Below are positions 18,253 to 30,217 of a stretch of DNA of 64,000 nt, one piece after another. Location of the stretch: contig NZ_CP079095.1 in assembly GCF_019285515.1 (NCBI RefSeq), positions 310,001 to 374,000 on the forward strand, in the 5' to 3' direction. Numbering within the stretch: the first letter of the stretch is position 1; each line of letters opens with the position of its first letter. Origin of the DNA: Methylococcus sp. Mc7 (GTDB lineage: Bacteria > Pseudomonadota > Gammaproteobacteria > Methylococcales > Methylococcaceae). The notes under the pieces were generated by a model. It searched no databases and was not told where the DNA came from. It saw only the letters and a list, made by a program, of their open reading frames with translations. A program made the translations under genes and the position numbers.

Positions 18253-19059
18253 TCAAGCGGCCGCCGTCCGCTTGTCGCGCTCGATCAGCGCGTAGGCCGA
18301 ATGGTTGTGGATGGACTCGAAATTCTCCACCTCGACAACGTAGGCGGCGATACGCGGTTCGGCGTCCAAACGGGCGGCCACGCCTCGCACCAGGTCCTCG
18401 ACGAAGCGGGGATGGTCGTAGGCGTATTCGGTGACGTATTTTTCGTCGGGACGTTTGAGGAGACCGTAAATCGGTGAAGAAGCCTCGGCCTCCACCCACT
18501 CGACCAACTCTTCGATCCACACGAAATCCCGGATGCACACGGCGACCGTGACATGAGAGCGCTGGTTGTGGGCGCCGCGTTCGGAAATCGCCTTGGAACA
18601 GGGACACAGGCTGGTGACCGGCACGGTCACTCTAAGCCGTGTCGTCGTTGCGGCTCCGGCGATTTCACCGATCAGGGCGACCTCGTAATCCATGAGACTC
18701 CTGACGCCCGTCACCGGCGCTCGTTTCTCCAGGAAGTAGGGAAAACGCATCTCGATGTGACCGGCCTCGGCGTCCAGGCGCTCCACCATTTCCACCAGCA
18801 TCGCCTCGAAGGAGGCGATGCCGATCTCGCGGTCGTGGCCGTTGATGATCTCCACGAAGCGCGACATGTGGGTCCCCTTGAAATGATGCGGCAGACTCAC
18901 CGCCATGTCGAAACGGGCGACGGTGCGCTGTTCGCCCAGACTTCGATCCCGGACCCTCACCGGATGGCGAATGCCCTTGATCCCGACCCTGTCGATGTCT
19001 ATGCGGCGCAGGTCCGCTCGGCCCTGCACGTCGTCGATAGCCAGCCCTGCGTCTTTCAT
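18253..19059 (-). CDS. folE2: GTP cyclohydrolase IB (zinc-independent type)
   Basis: 268 aa. [25 protein letters not shown] is split by the usual FolE2 N-terminus, and [24 protein letters not shown] contains the catalytic Cys and His. FolE2 makes dihydroneopterin triphosphate for folate and queuosine without depending strictly on zinc, and in many bacteria it belongs to the Zur regulon as a stand-in for zinc-dependent FolE. Here it is the last gene of the znuD-to-folE2 operon and overlaps queD by ATGA. Whether an ordinary folE exists elsewhere cannot be seen. Confidence 0.93.
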
Positions 19060-19493
19060 GCTTCGTCCTCGGTGTAGCGGACCGACGACGTATCCGTCTC
19101 CCAGACGGTCACCGCACTCACCTTGGCAAACTCCCGATCCAGCTTTGAGGAAAGCCGGCGGTAAAACCAGCCGGCCAGATTTTCCGCGGTCGGATTGATC
19201 CTGTCGAACGGCTCGATCTCATTGAGATAGCGGTGATCGAGGCGGTCGGCGATGGCCCGCGCTTCGGCCTTGATCTTCCTGAAATCCAGCGCAATGCCCA
19301 GGGCATCGAGGACCCTGGAAGACACCTCGATGTCGACCTTCCAGTTATGGCCATGCAAGCGCCGGCAATCGCCGGGGTAGTCCCGCAGCGAATGCGCAGA
19401 CGAAAATTGAACCTGAACCCTGAGCGTATAGCGGCCGCGAAGATTCGAATCCGCCAACGGAAACAGGCTGCAATGTGGACCCTGCGAAGACAT
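19056..19493 (-). CDS. queD: 6-carboxy-tetrahydropterin synthase (QueD/PTPS family)
   Basis: 145 aa from the ATG at 19493, which has GAGGG upstream; a TTG at 19568 overlapping the stop of the preceding gene would give 170 aa. [22 protein letters not shown] holds the zinc ligands His34, His47 and His49 and catalytic Cys43 in the C-x2-L-HGH arrangement of Que[10 protein letters not shown] and [15 protein letters not shown] follow. It converts dihydroneopterin triphosphate, the FolE2 product, toward queuosine. The pair forms a compact GTP-to-deazapurine module in the zinc operon. QueD itself is a zinc enzyme. Confidence 0.85.
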
Positions 19494-19564
19494 TGCCGCT
19501 ACGCCCTCGATGAAAACGGACCGATACTTGCGCGACGGAGACGGCGACGAGCAATCCGGGAAGC

Positions 19565-20542
19565 TCAACCATCGGTGTGGCAGGAAGCCAGCGCAGCCCG
19601 GATTTCCTCATGCGGCAGGTTGCGCCCGATGAAGACCAATTGGGACTCGCGCGCCTCCCCCTCGCCCCAAGGCAGCCCCGCCGTGTCGCCGAACAACATG
19701 TGTACGCCCTGAAAAACGATGCGGCGGTCGCAGCCGGCTACGTTGAGGATGCCTTTGTAGCGCAACAACTCCTGACCGAACCGGCCGACCATGATTTCCA
19801 TGAAGCAAAGCAGACGCGCGAAGTCGAAAGGTTTGTCGGAGCGGTACACGAACGAACCGACGGCGTCATCATGTTCGTGGCTGACGTCCTCCAGAAAGTC
19901 CGGCTCCAGGGCAAGGATTTCCCTCAGATCGAACCCCCGGATGTCGAGGACTTCGCGCAGGTCCACCTGACCGAAGTGGACTCGCAGCAGGGGCGCGCGC
20001 GGATTCATGGCACGCAGGCGCGCCATCAAAGCGTTCACCGCTTCCTCGCTGACCAGATCGGTCTTGGACAACAGAATGCGGTCGGCGAAACCGACCTGCT
20101 CCTGCGCCTCGTGGCACTCGTCGAGCTGCCGCGGAGCGTGTTTGGCGTCCACCACCGTGATGATGGCGTCCAGGCGGTAATCCCGGGCAACGCCTTCGTC
20201 GACGAAAAAGGTCTGCGCCACCGGCGCCGGATCGGCCAGCCCCGTGGTTTCGATGAGAACCCGGCAGAAATTCACCGCGCCCCGGCGGCGGCGCTCCGCC
20301 AGATCGCCCAGGATGCGCACCAGGTCGCCACGCACCGTGCAGCAAATGCAGCCGTTGTTCATCTCGACGATCTGCTCGTCGCCCTGCTGCAGCAGCTCGT
20401 TGTCCACCCCGATCTCACCGAACTCGTTTTCGATCACGGCGATACGCTGACCATGCGCTTCGCCGAGGATACGGTTCAAGAGCGTGGTTTTACCTGCACC
20501 CAAAAAGCCGGTGAGAATCGTTACTGGAATGGGTTCACTCAC
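19565..20542 (-). CDS. COG0523 family GTPase (CobW/ZigA/YeiR-like zinc chaperone)
   Basis: 325 aa from the GTG at 20542, overlapping the hisI stop by 8 nt. GTPase motifs: [16 protein letters not shown] (Walker A), [12 protein letters not shown], and the metal-binding CICC within [21 protein letters not shown] and SKTDLV follow. A short acidic/His stretch (DVSHEHDD) and a CobW C-terminal domain ([24 protein letters not shown]) complete it. Zur-regulated COG0523 proteins insert zinc into essential enzymes; here the immediate neighbours are HisI, QueD and, further upstream, FhcA, all metal enzymes. ZigA-like function is inferred from context. Confidence 0.9.
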
Positions 20543-20945
20543 GAGATAGACTCCTCGAATCGACGACCAGGTCTTCGCCGTCGACGCGGTTGTAAAAACA
20601 ACTCGAACGTCCGGTGTGACAGGCCGGACCCTGTTGATCGACCAGAAGCAGCACCGTGTCGCCGTCACAATCCAGACGCAGCTCCTTCAGCCACTGCCGG
20701 TGCCCCGAAGTCTCACCCTTGCGCCAAAGCGCCTGGCGCGAACGCGACCAGTAGCAGACACGCCCGGTGGCCAGCGTCTCGACGAGCGCCGCGCGGTTCA
20801 TCCACGCGAGCATGAGCACCTGGCCGGTGTCATATTGCTGGGCAATGGCGGGAATCAGGCCGCGGTCGTCGAAAGGCAAGCTATCCATGACGGCCCGCCA
20901 TGGCAGGCGGGCACCTTCCGGCAAGGCTTCGGCCAAGTCGATCAC
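20535..20945 (-). CDS. hisI: Phosphoribosyl-AMP cyclohydrolase (probable zinc-operon copy of HisI)
   Basis: 136 aa, GTG start overlapping the preceding stop as [63 protein letters not shown] and SCFYNR are HisI motifs and the zinc Cys residues (DCDGD, ACHTG, SSCF) are intact. It opens the purine ring in histidine synthesis. It is not in a his operon but between dksA2 and the COG0523 GTPase, as extra HisI copies are in other Zur-controlled clusters. I infer a second copy exists elsewhere. Confidence 0.9.
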
Positions 20946-21160
20946 GGCTGAGTCTCCTGCGCCGCGTGCTCAAACCAGCCCAACACGCGCAGCCAATGGG
21001 CGTCGCCGTAAAGACGGCGAAAACGCCCGGCTTCCTCGGCCTCTCCGTCCCTCAAGGCGGCAAGCCGTGCATGGAGGAAAGCCGCCGTCAATGGAATGCC
21101 GCATTCCACCTCGATGCAGTGGCGCCACGCGCTGTAGGTCTGTGGGACCCGGAAGGTCAT
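20942..21160 (-). CDS. Uncharacterised 72-aa protein in the zinc operon
   Basis: The ATG at 21160 overlaps the dksA2 stop as ATGA, and its own stop overlaps the hisI start, so it is firmly locked into the operon. The protein is mostly helical, rich in Ala, Arg and aromatic residues: [20 protein letters not shown], then [19 protein letters not shown] and [19 protein letters not shown]. There is no signal peptide, membrane segment or recognised domain. Two Cys and several His could bind metal, but not in a standard motif. Function unknown; context points to zinc limitation. Confidence 0.75.
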
Positions 21161-21600
21161 GACGGATTTCCCTGCCGTTCGGCGCGCTCGTGGCGGTTCT
21201 GGGCTTCCAGGCAAAGCGTAGTAGTGGGCCGGGCAAGCAGACGCCGCAAGCCGATCGGTTCGCCCGTTTCTTCGCAATAGCCATAGGTTCCCTCGGCGAT
21301 GCGCGCCAGGGCGGCATCGATCTTCTTCAGGTACTTGCGCTCGCGGTCCAGCCGGCGCAGTTCGATGAGATGTTCTTCTTCCAACGTCGCCCGGTCGTTG
21401 GGATCGGAAAGAACATCCCCTGCTTCCAAAGCGGTCCGTGCCGAAAAAGCGCGTTCCAATAATTCGGCTCGAAGGGCTCCCAAGTAGTGACGGAAGAAGG
21501 TGGTCTGACTCGCGTTCATGTAAGCGCCCGCCGGCATCGCCAATAACTCCTCCCCACTGATAGGGCTACCGTCGGCTAATTCGACGTCGTGCTCAAGCAT
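21157..21600 (-). CDS. dksA2: DksA-type RNA polymerase regulator lacking zinc ribbon (DksA2)
   Basis: 147 aa from the ATG at 21600; GAGGACC upstream overlaps the end of fhcA. It has the DksA coiled coil with the acidic tip DxxDxA (Asp66, Asp69, Ala71 in SDPNDRAT), and ERKYLKKIDAALARIAEGTYGYC. The four-Cys zinc ribbon is reduced to two Cys: C109-E-E-T and C130-L-E-A, the same CxxT/CxxA pattern as the zinc-independent DksA2 of Pseudomonas aeruginosa. It should support the ppGpp-linked stringent response when zinc is scarce. It lies between fhcA and the 72-aa gene in the Zur operon. Confidence 0.92.
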   Translation of the reverse strand: MLEHDVELADGSPISGEELLAMPAGAYMNASQTTFFRHYLGALRAELLERAFSARTALEAGDVLSDPNDRATLEEEHLIELRRLDRERKYLKKIDAALARIAEGTYGYCEETGEPIGLRRLLARPTTTLCLEAQNRHERAERQGNPS

Positions 21601-21610
21601 TGTCTGGTCC

Positions 21611-23329
21611 TCATGCCGCCCGAATCGAATGGAAGCGCTCGGCATCGCTCCGCTCGAAGGCCACGCCGCCCACGGTGAAATGGTCCAGCGACAGGCTGTA
21701 GAAGCGATCGAAATAGGCTTTGACGTCGCGCTCGATGCGCCTGTCGTAGCAAGGCTCGATGGTCAGCGCCGAACCCGCCGGCCGATCGACCACGGCCCCC
21801 TCGCGAACTACCAGCCTTCCGCCTTTCCATACCCATGCCGCGTCGGTGAACATCGCCCGCTTATCCGCCTGCGGCCGGTAGGCCGCGACATCGGCGATGG
21901 CGCCGGGACACAGGTGGCCGCGGTCTTCCAAACCCAAAAGACGCGCCGCGGCTGCCCGTGTCATGACCGCAATGTCGTGGAGGGAAAACTCCCGGCGCAG
22001 GTGAGGCAAAAGCGTCAAGGCCAGCGCTTCCTGATCGAGCCGGGCCATGACCGATGCACGGTAGTCGGCGTCCATCAGCAGACGGATCAGTTCCGGATAG
22101 GCGGTGAAAGGCGCGCCGTTGGGATGGTCGGTGGTGAAGAACAACCGCCATGGCTCTTCCGCCAGCAGGAAAATCTCGAGACCGATGGCCCACTGCAGGG
22201 TGTTGACGAAACTCCGCTCCCGGTACCGATAAGGCACCACCCCGCCGGCGCCGTCGCACTCGGCCTCCCACACCACCCATTTGCCGGGGCTGGCGTCGCC
22301 GCGGCGGCTGTACTGCGCGATCACGTCGCCGGAAACGGTGACCGTCTGCCCGAACAGCACCTGACCCACATCCATGGTGATGTTGGGGTGGCGGTGGAAA
22401 GCTTCCATCAGACGCGCCGCGCCCGAGGAAAAGCCCTTGGCGCCTTCCTGCCCGTAACCGTAGAACTGGATGTGCGCCAGATGCATGGGCAGACCCTGTG
22501 CGGCCTCCATGGTGGCGATGGCGGTTTCCACGTTGCCGGGGACGCCGAGGTTGTTGCAGTGGACGTGCACGGGATGCGGGATGCCCATCTCGCACACGGC
22601 CCGCTGCAGCGTTTGCAGGATCCGGCGGGAGCTGACCCCATAGTAGGGCACGACGTCGTCCAGATCGAATTGGCGCATGTTCCATTTGAAGGCCGCGGCC
22701 CCGCCGGCATTGATCACCTTGAGTCCCAGACAGCGGGTGGCATGCAGCGTCCAGGCCACGTAGTCGTTGATCTGCGCCTGGCTGGCCCGGTCGCGCAGCA
22801 GTCCCAGCAGAAAATCGTCGCTGCCCAGAATGGCCAGGCCCGCCGTGTCGATGATGGGGATGTCGGCCATTTGCAGATGGGCATCCAGGGCGTTGGCCGG
22901 CAGCACCGCCGGCTCGACCACCGTGGTATACCCCATCCGGGCATAACGGTAGCCGATGTCGGCGCTCGACCATTTGGCCGTGCTGACAAGTTCGCCGGGA
23001 GCGAACTGGGACCGCAAAGCGGGCCCCGAAGGGGCGAATCCCATGGATGGGGTGAGCAGCGGATGGTTCAGCCGCCGCGCCATGAAGTTCCGATGCTGCT
23101 CCGGCAGGAGCACCCTCGCCGTGTTCACGTTGCCGCCGGCGATGTGGCTGTGGATGTCGATCGCTCCGGCCATGAGGATATGGCCCGAAAGGTCGTGCAC
23201 CTCGTCGACGGAGGCATCGGGCCCCGGGTCGGCGGCGACGCGCCCATCCCGGAGGTACAGATCGCGGATCTCACCCGCCCACCCCTGTACCGGGTCGTAG
23301 ACGGACGCGCCGGAAAGCCTGGTCAGCAC
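21611..23329 (-). CDS. fhcA: Formyltransferase/hydrolase complex subunit A (FhcA; FmdA/FwdA family), in a zinc operon
   Basis: 572 aa cyclic amidohydrolase. FhcA-specific signatures run throughout: GAIDIHSHIAGGNVNTARVL, YRYARMGYTTVVEPAVLP, NDYVAWTLHATRCLGLKVIN, HCNNLGVPGNVET, VGQVLFGQTVTVSGD, ECDGAGGVVPYRYRERSFVN and FFTTDHPNGAPFTAYPELI. The binuclear metal ligands are all present: His60, His62, Lys215 (site of carboxylation), His257, His286, Asp401. In methylotrophs FhcA hydrolyses formyl-methanofuran analogue in the tetrahydromethanopterin pathway of formaldehyde oxidation, normally encoded with fhcB, D and C. Here those partners are absent and the gene sits between a DUF1826 gene and dksA2 in the Zur operon, suggesting a stress-expressed copy. 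It could also be the only fhcA; the window cannot decide. Confidence 0.9.
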   Translation of the reverse strand: MLTRLSGASVYDPVQGWAGEIRDLYLRDGRVAADPGPDASVDEVHDLSGHILMAGAIDIHSHIAGGNVNTARVLLPEQHRNFMARRLNHPLLTPSMGFAPSGPALRSQFAPGELVSTAKWSSADIGYRYARMGYTTVVEPAVLPANALDAHLQMADIPIIDTAGLAILGSDDFLLGLLRDRASQAQINDYVAWTLHATRCLGLKVINAGGAAAFKWNMRQFDLDDVVPYYGVSSRRILQTLQRAVCEMGIPHPVHVHCNNLGVPGNVETAIATMEAAQGLPMHLAHIQFYGYGQEGAKGFSSGAARLMEAFHRHPNITMDVGQVLFGQTVTVSGDVIAQYSRRGDASPGKWVVWEAECDGAGGVVPYRYRERSFVNTLQWAIGLEIFLLAEEPWRLFFTTDHPNGAPFTAYPELIRLLMDADYRASVMARLDQEALALTLLPHLRREFSLHDIAVMTRAAAARLLGLEDRGHLCPGAIADVAAYRPQADKRAMFTDAAWVWKGGRLVVREGAVVDRPAGSALTIEPCYDRRIERDVKAYFDRFYSLSLDHFTVGGVAFERSDAERFHSIRAA

Positions 23330-23344
23330 GCTCCACCCCTTCCG

Positions 23345-24034
23345 CTATTGGAGCAAGTCCAGGGTCAACAGCAAGCGGCGCGGCTGTTCTGGCGTTGGCC
23401 TGGGGGAGCGATGCACGGCGCCGGGATAGTCCCTCCCCTCCCAGGTGGCGCCCTTCATCAGGGCGACGGCATGGGCGGGCATGGTGCGCACGTCGCCGAG
23501 AATCAGCCCGGAATCCTCGTCGGGCAGGCCTTTCGAACCGGCCAGCCCCAGCTTGCTGCGGTCGACCTCGTCGTCCGCCAGCCACTCGGTCCCCAGCCCG
23601 CCGTAGGTGCACACCAGGCGGCAGGGTACGAAATCGACATGGAAGCGCGGGCACATGGCCTGGTTCAGCGTGCGCAGACGCAGCCCGACCGAGCCGGTTT
23701 CGAACAGATCGCAGAAGGCGGCGGTGAGCCGGGCGATGTCCCGCCACCACGAATCATGGCCCTCCAGCTCCCGGTACCCGGGCAGCAGCGAGGAAAAATC
23801 GAAATGCTCGAAGGACAACGCCTGCGACGATTCGATTGCGTCCCCGCGCTTCAGCAGTTCGCCCACGAAGCGCCCGATCGCCGGCTCGGGCGCGCGCCGG
23901 ATCAGGCAGAGATTGACATCCGGCTGGTAGATGCGCGCCAGATCGGCGAAAACGTCGGAGATGATGGCGGTCCGGACCGCGGGAGTTTGACGCGGGCGGG
24001 CGGCGGCGTTCATGGCGTATCGGTGAGCAAGCAT
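23345..24034 (-). CDS. DUF1826 family protein
   Basis: 229 aa (ATG at 24034, or 24013; neither has a clear ribosome site). Features: FADLARIYQPDVNLCLIRR, FHVDFVPCRLVCTYGGLGTEW, VHRSPRPTPEQPRRLLLTLD, and a middle part with conserved-looking Trp and His. The HVD and VHRSP elements recall proline-type oxygenase folds but this is only an impression. No signal peptide. It lies 16 nt after znuD and 15 nt before fhcA. Proteins of this family are, as I recall, often found beside Zur or COG0523 genes, which agrees with the context; activity unknown. Confidence 0.75.
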   Translation of the reverse strand: MLAHRYAMNAAARPRQTPAVRTAIISDVFADLARIYQPDVNLCLIRRAPEPAIGRFVGELLKRGDAIESSQALSFEHFDFSSLLPGYRELEGHDSWWRDIARLTAAFCDLFETGSVGLRLRTLNQAMCPRFHVDFVPCRLVCTYGGLGTEWLADDEVDRSKLGLAGSKGLPDEDSGLILGDVRTMPAHAVALMKGATWEGRDYPGAVHRSPRPTPEQPRRLLLTLDLLQ

Positions 24035-24050
24035 ATGTTCTTTGGACAGG

Positions 24051-26180
24051 TCAATAGGTGATCCGTATACCCAACTCCGCCCCGCGCCCCGCCTCCGGCG
24101 CGAAATAGCGCAGGTAGGAGGTGGAGTTGCGGATGTTGTCGTTGAGCAGGTTGTTGCCCTGGGCGAAGACCAGCACGTCGGCGTCCTTGAACGCCTTGAC
24201 CTCGTACTGCACGCCCAGGTTGAGCAGCACGTAGCCGTTGGTCATGGCATCGTTCTGGCCGGCATAGATCTGCTTCTCGCCGCGAGTCAGCCGCAGATTG
24301 CTGCTCCAGTGCTCGTCGTAGGCATAGTCGAGCTGGAAGCCATAGCGCAGCGGCGGCATGCGCGGCACGTTGCCGCCGTTGACGAACTGGCCGCGGGTGA
24401 AATCGCTGAACAGGGTCAGATCCAGCACCCCGTAGCGGTTTTCCATCAGCGAAAATTTGACGTTGCCTTCGTAGCCCAGGAAGTAGGCGCCGGCCTGGGT
24501 GGTCTGCACCACCGGGAAACAGGCGCCCGGACTGGTGCAGACTTTCTCGAACTGCTCGGAGTCTTCGTTGAACACCTCATCCGTGATCTGCTGGTAGATG
24601 TAATCGTTCACGAAGTTCTGGAACACGTTGAGCTCGGCGCTGATTCCCCGCCCCCTGTAGCGGTAGCCCCAGTCGAAGTTGTAGGAGGTTTCCTCGGTGA
24701 GATTGGGATCGCCCAGCTCATAGCTGTGCGTGGCGTCGTGCACGCCGTCGGTGAACAGCTCCTGCACTTGGGGCGCCCGTTGCGAGCGGGTCGCGGCGAA
24801 GCTGACGGTATTTTCGTCGTCGAGTTTCCATTGCCCGGAGCCGGAGGCGCTGATCGGCGCGTAGCTGCGGTTGGGGCCGCCCTGGGGATCGATGGAGTCT
24901 GATTCCCCGCGCAGCCCAAGCTCGTAGAAACCCGCGCCCAGCTCGAAGGATTCGACGGCGAACACGCCGTAGCTGCCGAGTTGCGATTTGGGTACCAGCG
25001 CGTCCGGCGAACCGATCTCGATCGCCTCGAAATCGGCCGAACTCATCTGCACCCCGACGACGCCCTTCACGATGCCGATCGGCTGGTGCACCACTTCCAG
25101 GCGCCCTTCGTTGGTCGTCTTGTTGAAACGGGCGGCCGCCACGCCGTCGTCCAGCTCGGTGTGGGTGTAATTGATGTGGCCGAAGCGCATGCGCACGGTC
25201 TCGACGAAATCCACCGGGGCGTTCAGCTCGCTCTTGAAATCGTAGCGCGACTCCTTGAGGTTGATCCGGGTGTCGCCCGCGCCGGGCGAGCCGTCGGGTG
25301 GAATGCCGTAGTTGTTGCCTAAGTAATTGATCGACACTCCGGCGAAGCCCGGCTCGCCCACCAGGGAGAACCCGGCGGAACCGCCCTTGGCCCGGTTTTC
25401 GGTATTGGGGATGACGCCGTAGGAATTCTGGATCGGGCTGCCTTGCAGCGCGAGGTCGGTCTGGCGCGCCTGGGTCTCGGCGATCGCCGGGCCGCCGATG
25501 TGCAGATTGTTGCCATCGCGGTAGAAACCGTCCAGGTGATAGGACACCAGGTCCTGGCCGCCTTCGACCTTGAGATTGGTCGTGGTCTGGCCCGAAACCG
25601 AGTTGAACCGCTGTTCCCCGGTCGCCGTCATCAGCTTGTCCGGCACCAGCGAAGGAATACGGTTGTCGAGGACGTTGACGATACCGCCGATCGCCCCGCT
25701 GCCATACAGCAGTGTGGCCGGACCGCGCAGGACCTCGACCCGGTCGGCCAGCACCGGCTCCACGGCGTTGGCGTGGTCCGGGCTGATCTGCGAGACGTCG
25801 CCGGTGCCGATGCTGTTGGTCATGACCTGGACCCGGGGACCGGTCTGGCCGCGGATCACCGGAATGCCGACGCCGGGTCCGAAGGATTCGCTGGTGACCC
25901 CGGCTTCCTGCTTGAGGGTTTCGCCGATGGTGGTGCCGATCTTCGTCCGCAACTCCTTGTCGGCCAGCACGGTCACGGGACGCGCCATTTCGGAGACCTT
26001 TTCTTCCAGCGGACTGCTGACAACGACCGGTTCTAGCTCCACGGGAGCCGGCTCCGCACCGGATGCCGGCGGGCTCTTTTCGTTATGGACCGGCTTACCC
26101 TCCGGCTCGGGAAGCTCGGCGGCATGGAGCGGCGCAGCCAGCGCAATGGAGCACAAGGACAGGGAAAATCGTTTGAACAT
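24051..26180 (-). CDS. znuD: TonB-dependent outer-membrane receptor, ZnuD-like zinc uptake
   Basis: 709 aa. Signal peptide (MFKRFSLSLCSIALAAPLHA), plug domain at about 55-190 (PVTVLADKELRTKIGTTIGE, PVIRGQTGPRVQVM, VEVLRGPATLLYGSGAIGG), then a beta barrel ending in ELGIRITY. The barrel carries INYTHTELDDG and LEVVHQPIG, as in the ZnuD family of zinc receptors, plus a loop with two Cys (CTSPGAC) and a His-containing N-terminal linker. It would import zinc or a zinc complex, powered by TonB. First gene of the nine-gene operon; a Zur-type site overlaps its promoter and the leader is about 120 nt. Confidence 0.88.
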   Translation of the reverse strand: MFKRFSLSLCSIALAAPLHAAELPEPEGKPVHNEKSPPASGAEPAPVELEPVVVSSPLEEKVSEMARPVTVLADKELRTKIGTTIGETLKQEAGVTSESFGPGVGIPVIRGQTGPRVQVMTNSIGTGDVSQISPDHANAVEPVLADRVEVLRGPATLLYGSGAIGGIVNVLDNRIPSLVPDKLMTATGEQRFNSVSGQTTTNLKVEGGQDLVSYHLDGFYRDGNNLHIGGPAIAETQARQTDLALQGSPIQNSYGVIPNTENRAKGGSAGFSLVGEPGFAGVSINYLGNNYGIPPDGSPGAGDTRINLKESRYDFKSELNAPVDFVETVRMRFGHINYTHTELDDGVAAARFNKTTNEGRLEVVHQPIGIVKGVVGVQMSSADFEAIEIGSPDALVPKSQLGSYGVFAVESFELGAGFYELGLRGESDSIDPQGGPNRSYAPISASGSGQWKLDDENTVSFAATRSQRAPQVQELFTDGVHDATHSYELGDPNLTEETSYNFDWGYRYRGRGISAELNVFQNFVNDYIYQQITDEVFNEDSEQFEKVCTSPGACFPVVQTTQAGAYFLGYEGNVKFSLMENRYGVLDLTLFSDFTRGQFVNGGNVPRMPPLRYGFQLDYAYDEHWSSNLRLTRGEKQIYAGQNDAMTNGYVLLNLGVQYEVKAFKDADVLVFAQGNNLLNDNIRNSTSYLRYFAPEAGRGAELGIRITY

Positions 26181-26305
26181 GATGCTTCCGGAACCTCTTG
26201 GATCCGTACCGATGTTATATCGTCACTCGTCTCGCGCCAGCCGATCCGCTATCTTCCGGCAAACACTCGCAGCCAACCCGAAGAGCTGCTCTGGCGGCGG
26301 GCGAG

Positions 26306-26335
26306 ATTATATATGTTATAAAGTAACAAAATCAA
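26306..26335 (-). promoter_or_regulatory. Zur-controlled promoter of the znuD-folE2 operon
   Basis: On the minus strand TTGATT (26335-26330), 18-nt spacer and a perfect TATAAT (26311-26306). The spacer is filled by a 17-nt site at 26313-26329, read on the plus strand as ATGTTATA-A-AGTAACAA, which matches the gammaproteobacterial Zur box (ATGTTATA-N-TATAACAT) at 8 of 8 bases in one half and 5 of 8 in the other. A second perfect half-site ATGTTATA occurs at 26212-26219 in the leader. Zinc-loaded Zur bound here would block RNA polymerase. Confidence 0.82.
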
Positions 26336-26407: not shown

Positions 26408-26926
26408 TCAAACGGACTCTTCTTGCGCGGCGCAAGCCGGGCAAATGCCGTGTATTTCCAGCGCCTTGTAGCGAACGCGAAAACTGGCCGAGGCGACTTC
26501 CGCGGCCACGGCGGCCATGACGGATGAGGCGGCACGCTCTTCGACCGTGTGGCAGCGGTCGCAGATCAGCAGCAGGAGTTCGTGCCGGCGTCCGACGTCG
26601 CTGCAGCCGATGAAGGCGTTGAGGCTCTCGACGCGGTGGATGAAACCCTGCTCCAGCAGGAAATCCAGCGCCCGGTATACGGTTGCGGGCTTGGCGGACG
26701 GATCGAACGGCTTGAGCAGTTCGAGCAGGTCGTAAGCCTTGACCGCCTCGTGATTTTCCCAGATCAGCGCGAGCACCTGGCGCCGCAGCGGCGTGAAGCG
26801 CACCCCGCGCTCGCTGCAGAGTTTTTCGGCGCGGCTCAGGGCACGGTCTATGCACCCCTGATGGTCGTGGCCGCCGGCCGGCGCGGGCGCGGCCACGTCC
26901 GCGGTCAAGGTCCCTCCGAAACTCAC
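26408..26926 (-). CDS. zur: Zinc uptake regulator Zur (Fur family)
   Basis: 172 aa, GTG start overlapping the previous stop. It resembles E. coli Zur closely: AEKLCSERGVRFTPLRRQVLALI, AYDLLELLKPFDPSAKPATVYRALDFLLEQGFIHRVESLNAF, then the structural zinc site CDRC and CPAC pairs. It represses zinc-uptake genes when zinc is ample. The predicted site lies 80 nt beyond its stop codon, in the promoter of znuD. It is translationally coupled to a small membrane-protein gene upstream. Confidence 0.93.
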   Translation of the reverse strand: MSFGGTLTADVAAPAPAGGHDHQGCIDRALSRAEKLCSERGVRFTPLRRQVLALIWENHEAVKAYDLLELLKPFDPSAKPATVYRALDFLLEQGFIHRVESLNAFIGCSDVGRRHELLLLICDRCHTVEERAASSVMAAVAAEVASASFRVRYKALEIHGICPACAAQEESV

Positions 26927-27950: not shown

Positions 27951-29234
27951 TCACAGCGCGTAAACCAGCCGCCCCCCGGCTACGGTTGCCATCACCCGTC
28001 CCGTCAGCGTCCGCTCCCAGAACGGCGTGTTGCGGCCCGCGCTGAGCCAGCCGCCCTCGGCCGGCACCCACTCCGCCGCCGGATCGAACACGCAGATATC
28101 CGCCGGCGCGCCCGGCGCCAGCCGGCCGGACTCCAGCCCAAGGATCGCCGCGGGCCCCACCGTCAGGCGGGCGATGGCATCGGGCAGCGACAGCCTCCCC
28201 TCCGCCACCAGTGCACACATCAGCGGCAGCAGGGTCTGCAATGAAGACAAGCCGGGCTCGGTTTCGGGGAAGACGTCGAGCTTGGCATCCGGCTCGTGGG
28301 GCTGGTGATCCGAGCATACCGCTGAAATCCGGCCGTCCGCCACGGCAGCGAGCAGCGCGTCGCGGTCGGACATCGTGCGAAATGGCGGGCGGCTGTGGCA
28401 AAGCGCGTCGAAACCATCGACGCTCGACTCGGTGAGATGCAGATGATGCACCGCCACGTCCGCGCTGACGCGCACACCCCGCGCCCTGGCCTCGGCGACC
28501 ATTTCCACCGCGCGGCCGCTGCTGAGCTGGCCGAAATGCGCGCGCCCCCCCGTCTGCTCGATCAGCGGGAGCGCCTGGGCGACCGCGACCGTCTCCGCCG
28601 TCTCAGGGATGCCCGGCAGACCGAGACGGCTGCTCACGGCCCCCTCGTGCACACACCCCTGGCCGCACAGCCACGGGTCCTCGGGGCGGAACACCACGAC
28701 GAGCTCGAAACTCGCCGCGTATTCCAGCGCCCGCCGCAGCACCAGCAGATTGGCGAGGGGACGGTCGGCATTGCCCAGAGCCAGGCAGCCGGCGCGCTTC
28801 AGCGCGTGCATTTCGCTGAGGTCCTTTCCGTTCAGGCCGCGGGTCAAGGCACCGATCGGCAGCACCCGTACCTTGCCCGCCTCCTCGGCCCGCTCCGTGA
28901 CCAGCTTGACCACGGCGGGCGTATCGATGACAGGGACCGTATCCGGGGGACAGCACAGGGTGGTGATGCCGCCGGCCGCCGCCGCCGCGCCTTCGGACGC
29001 GATGGTGCCCTTGGGTTCCTGTCCAGGCTCGCGGAGACGGGCGCACAGATCGATGAAACCGGGACATACGATCCGGCCGCCGGCATCAATGCGGCGATCC
29101 GCCTCGAACCCGTCCGGACGGGCACCGACGCCGACGATGACGCCGTCCGCGACGCACACGACACCCGCCCCGTCGAAACCGCTGGCCGGATCGACGATGC
29201 GCCCGCCCTCGACGAGGATGCGTTGGCCGCTCAT
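27951..29234 (-). CDS. pyrX: Dihydroorotase-like pseudoenzyme (PyrC'/PyrX)
   Basis: 427 aa with the dihydroorotase fold ([56 protein letters not shown]). The metal motif HxH that should follow FID is Cys64-Ala-Arg66, and the usual His-containing strand before the carboxylysine region reads [10 protein letters not shown], so the active site is lost. In Pseudomonas an inactive PyrC' of this kind is required to assemble the aspartate transcarbamoylase dodecamer with PyrB. Its ATG overlaps pyrB, supporting that role. Confidence 0.9.
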
Positions 29235-30217
29235 GCCGACCCCTCCATGTCCGGCCCGGCGTGCATGGCCATGGACATCACCGCCATGCGCACCGCGATA
29301 CCGTGGGTCACCTGCTGCAGGATCACGGAGCGGGGACCGTCGGCGATGGCCGAATCGATCTCGATCCCGCGGTTGATCGGCCCCGGATGCATGACGATGA
29401 CGTCCGGCCTGGCTTTCTCCAGGCGCTTCTCCGTCAGGCCGAAGCGTTGGAAATATTCGTGTTCGGATGGAATGAACGCGCTGCCCATGCGCTCGAGCTG
29501 CAAGCGCAGCATGATGACCACGTCGACGTCGCGCAGCCCCTCGTTCAGATCGTGGTAGGGCGCCACGCCCAAGGCTTCGACATGAGCCGGCAAGAGGGTC
29601 TTGGGCGCCACCACCCGCACCTCGTCCACCCCCAGGGTGTTGAGCGCCCAGATTTCGGAACGCGCCACGCGGGAATGCAGGATGTCGCCGACGATGGCCA
29701 CCTTGAGGCCGGCGAACCCGCCCTTGGCCCGGCGGATGGTGAACACGTCCAGCATGGCCTGGGTCGGGTGGGCATGACGACCGTCGCCCGCGTTGAGCAC
29801 GCTGATGTGCGGCGCGACGTGGCGGGCGATGAAATGGGCGGCCCCGCTCTGGGCATGGCGCACCACGAACATGTCGACGTGCATCGCCTCCAGGTTGCGG
29901 ACGGTGTCGAGCAGGCTTTCGCCCTTGGAGGTCGCGGAAGTCGCGATGTTGATGTTGAGCACGTCGGCGGACAAACGCTTGGCGGCGAGTTCGAAGGTCG
30001 TCCGGGTGCGGGTGCTGTTCTCGAAAAACAGATTCACCACGGTCTTGCCGCGCAGCAGGGGCACCTTCTTGACGTTCTGAGCCGTCACGCCGGCGAAGGA
30101 CTCGGCGGTGTCCATGATCCGGACCAGCAGTTCCCGGCTCAGACCTTCGACCGTCAGAAAATGGCGCAGACGCCCGGAAGCGTCGAGCTGGATGTCGGCG
30201 GCGGCCGTCGCGCTCAT
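29231..30217 (-). CDS. pyrB: Aspartate carbamoyltransferase catalytic subunit
   Basis: 328 aa. [18 protein letters not shown] (carbamoyl-phosphate site), HIDVF-type region [35 protein letters not shown] and [12 protein letters not shown] are ATCase signatures. It forms carbamoyl-aspartate in pyrimidine synthesis. It is slightly longer at the N-terminus than E. coli PyrB, like the Pseudomonas type that partners PyrC'. It overlaps both pyrR and pyrX by 4 nt. Confidence 0.96.

Follow-up and report, generated by a model that had tools for sequence, protein, structure and literature searches.

A spare FhcA in a predicted Zur-controlled operon appears to tie zinc supply to one-carbon oxidation in methane- and methanol-eating bacteria

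Why should a gene for formaldehyde oxidation lie among genes for coping with zinc shortage? The question is raised by a 64,000-nucleotide (nt) stretch of the Methylococcus sp. Mc7 genome (hereafter, the window; NCBI RefSeq assembly GCF_019285515.1, contig NZ_CP079095.1, positions 310,001 to 374,000). There, fhcA2, encoding the amidohydrolase subunit FhcA of the formyltransferase/hydrolase complex, is the third of nine minus-strand genes (window positions 26180–18253), in the order znuD-like, DUF1826, fhcA2, dksA2, a 72-amino-acid open reading frame (ORF), hisI2, a COG0523 GTPase gene, queD2 and folE2. The original prediction read these genes as one zinc-starvation operon that carries FhcA as a zinc-stress copy. 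Coordinates and gene families bore out the cluster: the successive gaps are 16, 15 and 10 nt, followed by overlaps, except before queD2, which is preceded by 71 nt if its ATG start is used (an alternative TTG start lies at 19568). Family and profile searches returned the predicted family for every gene but the 72-amino-acid ORF, and zur (26926–26408), the gene for a zinc uptake regulator that the prediction had not mentioned, lies directly upstream. We consider it about 70% probable that this is one Zur-repressed zinc-starvation operon, in which FhcA2 serves as a spare FhcA and allows the formyltransferase/hydrolase complex to go on functioning when the cell is starved of zinc.

The fhcA2 gene (21611–23329, minus strand, GTG start) is full-length, and its product passes the equivalog cut-off of the FhcA model TIGR03121 (630 against 392.75 bits). 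As predicted, FhcB, FhcC and FhcD had no match in the window (tblastn, E value 1e-3). The genome (G000), which is 100% complete and assembled as a single contig of 4.0 Mb, encodes a second, canonical fhcA (fhcA1) at C1:1510104, 54% identical to FhcA2. It sits inside an fhcB-A-D-C cluster (~C1:1.51 Mb) where all four genes stand together, so that fhcA2 is not the only fhcA of the genome; a second canonical copy of this kind is one mark of a Zur-regulated zinc-enzyme paralog. The ORFs next to the cluster are presumably pmoCAB, and the 17-kb stretch around it held no Zur-type box better than 10/16. In all, five enzymes or factors of the operon have counterparts elsewhere in the genome: FhcA, HisI (C1:1580482), QueD (C1:1987708), FolE1 (C1:3100368) and DksA, whose zinc finger is CEET/CLEA in the operon's DksA2 and the full CETC/CIDC in the copy encoded elsewhere.

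Between zur and the znuD-like gene lies a Zur-box-like palindrome, TTGTTACTTTATAACAT (26313–26329, minus strand), with 13/16 matches to what we take to be the gamma-proteobacterial Zur consensus, for which the search pattern was TGTTATANTATAACA. It is the top consensus match within the window, and one of two sites with two mismatches to the pattern, tied as the best in the whole 4.0-Mb genome. The palindrome fills the spacer of a sigma-70-like promoter (TTGATT-18-TATAAT; 26306–26335, minus strand; 10/12 consensus matches), so a repressor bound there would block transcription. The promoter-like site thus holds, as a sequence match, the operator expected of a Zur-regulated paralog. A weaker second palindrome, GAGTGACGATATAACAT (26212–26228, minus strand; 11/16), may be a chance match, because other sites in the window score equally. 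On the coding strand, no terminator-like match lies in the gaps between the nine genes; such matches were found within the COG0523 gene or before the znuD-like gene, and their number in the region is that expected by chance (6 vs 6.7).

The pairing of fhcA with zinc genes recurs in other genomes, where the original prediction had proposed to look for it. A scan of genomes of named species gave 277 stretches encoding an FhcA relative, and the 80 best loci were retained. To identify neighbouring genes, the proteins of the window, together with FhcB, FhcA, FhcC and FhcD, served as tblastn queries. Sixty-five loci belong to the FhcA2 clade (47 Methylococcales-type, 18 from Methylophaga and others). 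Zinc markers were counted on the same strand (Zur, ZnuD, DksA2, HisI, COG0523, FolE2, QueD and DUF1826): at least one was present in 60/65 loci and at least two in 56/65, with the broad COG0523 family in 58/65 and DUF1826 in 52/65. None was found at 28 control fhcA loci, a comparison that is slightly generous because the fhcA1 stretches span 7–14 kb, less than most FhcA2 loci, whose lengths range from 3 to 21.7 kb, and none at seven Sedimenticola-type loci. The 28 controls comprised 20 fhcA1 stretches (19 with fhcB, A, D and C) and eight alphaproteobacterial loci (seven with all four). Recurrence in 60 of 65 FhcA2-clade loci from other genomes argues that the association is not due to chance, and fhcA2 thus shows the linkage to zinc import, zur or COG0523 genes by which Zur-regulated paralogs are recognised. 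Co-encoding with the other subunits is absent: no tblastn match to FhcB, FhcC or FhcD stood beside FhcA2 at any of the 65 loci. Five FhcA2-clade loci lacked every marker (L019, L029, L046, L069 and L073). L069 is a 3-kb contig; L073, a solo fhcA2, has a 13/16 box 97 bp ahead of the fhcA2 match; and L019 has a 14/16 box and, before fhcA2, a ZIP-like gene that we take to encode a ZIP-type transporter.

Zur-type boxes recur as well. A box with at least 13/16 matches lies upstream of fhcA2 in 35/47 Methylococcales-type loci and at 0/28 control fhcA loci; block shuffles gave a mean of 7.95 box matches over all 1.227 Mb of loci L010 (Methylococcus capsulatus Texas, G001) to L081. Among the 12 Methylococcales-type loci without a box, the upstream DNA is shorter than 3 kb in ten and amounts to 10 kb in two (L029 and L046). 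Boxes persist where the unit is reduced to hisI-fhcA2 (L079, 15/16), to fhcA2 alone (L073) or to the ZIP-like gene and fhcA2 (L019), and a Filomicrobium locus (L080) has a perfect palindrome, GGATGTTATAACATCC, upstream of fhcA2. At Methylophaga loci, the gamma-proteobacterial consensus found nothing at 13/16 or better upstream of fhcA2; a variant box, ATGATACGATATATCAT or near it, lies upstream of the operon or of fhcA2, scoring 15–16/17 immediately ahead of fhcA2 in L065 and L070, and 16–17/17 before the operon in L149, L150 and L154 (the stretch upstream of L078). It occurs somewhere at 14/17 or better in 8/11 Methylophaga-type loci scanned (none in L061, L073 and L078), and is weaker evidence because it was derived and tested on the same genomes, without a shuffle control. 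As judged from gene order and boxes, a Zur regulon around fhcA2 is well supported.

What kind of paralog, then, is FhcA2? It keeps the metal ligands H60, H62, K204, H257, H286 and D401; the first five are present in 97/97 aligned FhcA rows, and D401 in 96/97 with one gap. We presume these residues to be the ligands by combining the site composition of a review with positions that we assume. The available text of that review describes the [Zn-Zn] site of the FwdA/FmdA type as four His, one Asp and one carboxylysine (PMC11656701). Zinc-independence through ligand loss, on the model of PyrC2 and DksA2, was considered and is rejected for FhcA2, in which all six ligands are kept; judged by these residues, it belongs with the ligand-retaining subtype of Zur-linked paralogs. 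FwdA/FmdA of archaeal formylmethanofuran dehydrogenase (PDB 5t5i) is a homologous amidohydrolase subunit and the one for which the site was described; unlike it, FhcA2 has Asn67 at the position of the gatekeeper Lys64 (PMC11656701, in the text available), where methanotroph FhcA1 has Lys and the FhcA of PDB 6s6y has Asn.

A single diagnostic change sets the clade apart. Residue 338 is Ala in 63/63 FhcA2 rows, and also in L073, L079 and L080, as against Arg in 33/34 other FhcA; the sole exception, L126, reads Met and is possibly misaligned. By alignment the residue corresponds to R315 in 6s6y, the formyltransferase/hydrolase complex of what we take to be Methylorubrum extorquens. FhcA2 shares with that FhcA its family, six binuclear-metal ligands and the motif HSHIAGGN, and differs from it in this Ala and in its gene, which belongs to a zinc operon and does not lie with fhcB, C and D. 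At seven further loci of the class sample, three of them (L170, L172 and L175) from genomes already used, the residue is Ala in two that are zinc-linked and Arg, His or Lys in five beside FhcB. Outside the aligned sets it is Arg in L085, His in one FhcA of L139 and Ser in the divergent second FhcA of L139, which has its own fhcBADC, and a basic residue at 338 is therefore not universal. L139 (G048) and L079 come from one gammaproteobacterial metagenome-assembled genome, which has two fhcBADC sets and a Zur-linked fhcA2; the FhcA of its divergent set is 44% identical to FhcA1, and similar FhcA (40–43%) occur in several other members of the class.

FhcA2 is by its phylogeny an old paralog. In a quick-method tree of 84 rows (19 fragments or near-duplicates of 103 rows having been dropped beforehand), Methylococcales-type FhcA2 form one clade (support 96), joined first by Methylophaga (91) and then by L079/L080 (94); placement is unsure for the long rows L139b, L085, L079 and L080. 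The FhcA1 of the same bacteria fall elsewhere in the tree; alphaproteobacterial and Sedimenticola-type FhcA group with FhcA2 (100). A recent duplication of fhcA1 was rejected on these grounds, because FhcA2 groups with the FhcA2 of other genera and lies nearer to alphaproteobacterial and Sedimenticola-type FhcA than to FhcA1. FhcA2 is under purifying selection, with a ratio of nonsynonymous to synonymous substitution rates (dN/dS) of 0.14–0.15 in two close pairs and 0.11–0.12 in two wider ones (dS 1.0–1.6, near saturation); these values are higher than those of FhcA1 from three of the same genomes (0.02–0.10).

FhcA2 was carried by 44 of the 50 genomes behind the named loci, and 42 of these 44 also carry FhcA1 by identity (51–56%), partial or split in three (G011, G012 and G015); G010 and G014 (2.6–2.7 Mb) have FhcA2 without FhcA1. 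The remaining six genomes are Sedimenticola-type, with a single FhcA and FhcD present. At the loci of Sedimenticola-type sulfur bacteria and relatives (L063, L064, L071 and L074–L077), FhcA stands beside FhcB without nearby FhcC or FhcD matches, and in the six of these seven genomes that were searched FhcD lies ~15 kb away or on another contig. The order sample had FhcA in 129/151 genomes and FhcA2-like copies by identity in 37/151 (counted from the list), among which that of G067 is partial and that of G196 has a stop. G072, with a genome of 2.7 Mb, alone gave a count of ten FhcA2 matches. The class sample gave matches at E value 0.001 in 59/369 genomes; these include weak hits to amidohydrolases of other kinds. 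FolE2 was found in 4/10 genomes searched, one of which (G174) is without FhcA2.

How does FhcA2 compare with the Zur-linked paralogs already described? The available text of Haas et al. 2009 (PMC2770081) describes nine such families, some ligand-losing and some ligand-keeping; the spare copies serve the biosynthesis of folate, histidine, pyrimidines and queuosine, and one is a transcription factor. According to that text, the zinc ligands have disappeared from Zur-linked PyrC but persist in the paralogs of HisI and QueD, and raised copy number is offered as an alternative explanation for the ligand-retaining paralogs. fhcA2 resembles the COG0523-linked paralogs described there (HisI, QueD, PyrC and DksA with FolE2) in its type of cluster, its neighbours and its Zur-type box, and in duplicating a zinc enzyme that is encoded elsewhere in the genome. 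The parallel drawn in the original prediction with Zur-controlled clusters stands as to type; PyrC2, the amidohydrolase copy that it named, is not the best comparison, because Zur-linked PyrC lost its ligands and FhcA2 keeps them, as the HisI and QueD paralogs do; DksA and HemB differ from FhcA2 in the same way as PyrC (PMC2770081). FhcA is not among the nine families as described in the available text, the main text of that paper contains neither 'formyl' nor 'Methylococcus', and FhcA differs from those COG0523-linked paralogs in being a subunit of a multi-subunit catabolic complex. FhcA2 would thus add an enzyme family to the known type of Zur-linked spare copy. Among the matches listed for open-licence PubMed Central (titles and starts of abstracts, with subscription papers outside the scope), we found no description of a link between FhcA and zinc.

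The other genes of the region are as follows. The product of zur (26408–26926, minus strand, as are all genes of this paragraph) is a Fur-family regulator that matches PRK11639 Zur at E 1.8e-45 (154.7 bits, narrowly missing the cut-off of 167) and Pfam FUR above its cut-off. The TonB-dependent receptor (24051–26180) is aptly called ZnuD-like, because its NF038289 score (E 1.3e-113, 381 bits) falls below the cut-off of 950. DUF1826 (23345–24034; PF08856, 211 bits) lies on the FhcA2 strand at most FhcA2-clade loci and is a candidate zinc-starvation protein. The gene dksA2 (21157–21600; TIGR02420) encodes a protein that lacks two of the four zinc-finger cysteines. The 72-amino-acid ORF (20942–21160), whose longer frame (20942–21277) had no Pfam or NCBIfam match, has homologs near hisI in L024 and in L081 (Methylotuvimicrobium buryatense 5G, a carrier of the fhcA2 cluster; tblastn, 48–50%) and, in L079, shortly after a further Zur-type box, and is therefore probably a real small gene. 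It is followed by hisI2 (20535–20945; PF01502), a copy of the phosphoribosyl-AMP cyclohydrolase gene; the gene for a CobW/ZigA-like COG0523 GTPase, a candidate metallochaperone (19565–20542; PF02492 and PF07683); queD2 (19056–19493, or from the TTG at 19568; TIGR03367 above cut-off); and folE2 (18253–19059), for GTP cyclohydrolase FolE2 (PRK13674, 295.8 bits, cut-off 215). A congener (G067, L151) has the same operon with an extra COG0523 gene before queD, with fhcA2 split between two frames and with an in-frame TGA in folE2; the idea that the queD start region in the window is the scar of such a second COG0523 gene was dropped for want of clear sequence support. Upstream of zur on the same strand (27951–30217) lie a candidate pyrB and a dihydroorotase-like pyrC, as read by eye only.

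We propose that when zinc falls, Zur would dissociate from the palindrome within the promoter of znuD, so that the whole set of nine genes would be transcribed. FhcA2 would then replace or supplement FhcA1 in the FhcABCD complex, for which fhcBADC would still supply FhcB, C and D, and the hydrolysis of formyl-methylofuran to formate, and with it formaldehyde oxidation, would continue. Because every metal ligand is kept, what distinguishes FhcA2 is most likely its affinity, its tolerance of another metal or its loading by a co-expressed COG0523 GTPase, rather than a metal-free state. More tentatively, FhcA2 may form an alternative complex in zinc-poor cells, with another metal or one delivered by a dedicated COG0523 GTPase and, through the loss of the basic residue at 338, altered handling of polyglutamate methylofuran. 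Several observations weigh against a spare FhcA under Zur control. Sites with at most three mismatches to the Zur pattern number 12 genome-wide, against 15 for a reversed control pattern, and weight is therefore placed on the position of TTGTTACTTTATAACAT, its overlap with the promoter and its recurrence. The promoter-like matches (3 in the region, shuffle mean 1.7) are weak taken alone and not above chance. L029 and L046 have 10-kb upstream flanks without zinc genes or a box, yet carry Ala338, so that this residue marks the clade and not the zinc context; their genomes also carry a zinc-linked FhcA2 copy (L027 and L015). The patchiness of FhcA2 (37/151), together with its breakage in G067 and absence from another congener, G087, means that it is dispensable. 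Finally, according to the available part of a paper on Fhc, numerous positively charged residues hold the polyglutamate tail of methylofuran; Arg-to-Ala at 338 might loosen the attachment of this coenzyme or weaken the complex, in which case another role would be favoured.

Such a role would be that of a Zur-controlled amidohydrolase recruited to another reaction and no longer working with FhcBCD, its substrate being a different formyl-amide or a pterin or folate intermediate next to FolE2 and QueD. The clade-wide Ala at 338, set against Arg in nearly all other FhcA, and the lack of fhcB, C and D matches beside FhcA2, in the window as at the 65 loci, speak for it; we nevertheless judge it unlikely, as FhcA2 scores far above the FhcA equivalog cut-off, keeps six ligands and co-occurs with a second fhcA in 42/44 genomes, and the nearest FhcA outside its clade adjoin FhcB. 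That FhcA2 merely raises the dose of the same hydrolase under zinc stress, or stores zinc, without a distinct biochemistry would fit its complete set of ligands and the copy-number proposal for ligand-retaining paralogs (Haas et al. 2009, PMC2770081, in the text available). It is nonetheless improbable in our view: the clade is old and distinct, and a simple dose copy would not need a fixed diagnostic change. The patchy distribution, the decay in G067 and the two copies outside zinc clusters would suit an fhcA that is a chance passenger with no functional tie to zinc. This is very hard to credit given a linkage kept at Methylococcales-type, Methylophaga, one alphaproteobacterial and one other gammaproteobacterial locus, boxes that are present even where gene order differs, and purifying selection on FhcA2.

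If FhcA2 is indeed a spare FhcA for zinc starvation, the function spared would be the formate-releasing step of formaldehyde oxidation, the energy pathway of methane and methanol eaters, and FhcA would join the list of zinc-sparing enzyme families. FhcA1 and FhcA2, with identical ligands, would make a matched pair for studying metal choice, and zinc supply would become a testable control of methane oxidation. Such a copy appears to tie zinc supply to the oxidation of one-carbon compounds in these bacteria. Were FhcA2 to form the alternative complex tentatively suggested above, zinc supply would decide which version of the formaldehyde-oxidising complex is at work in gamma-proteobacterial methanotrophs and in Methylophaga.

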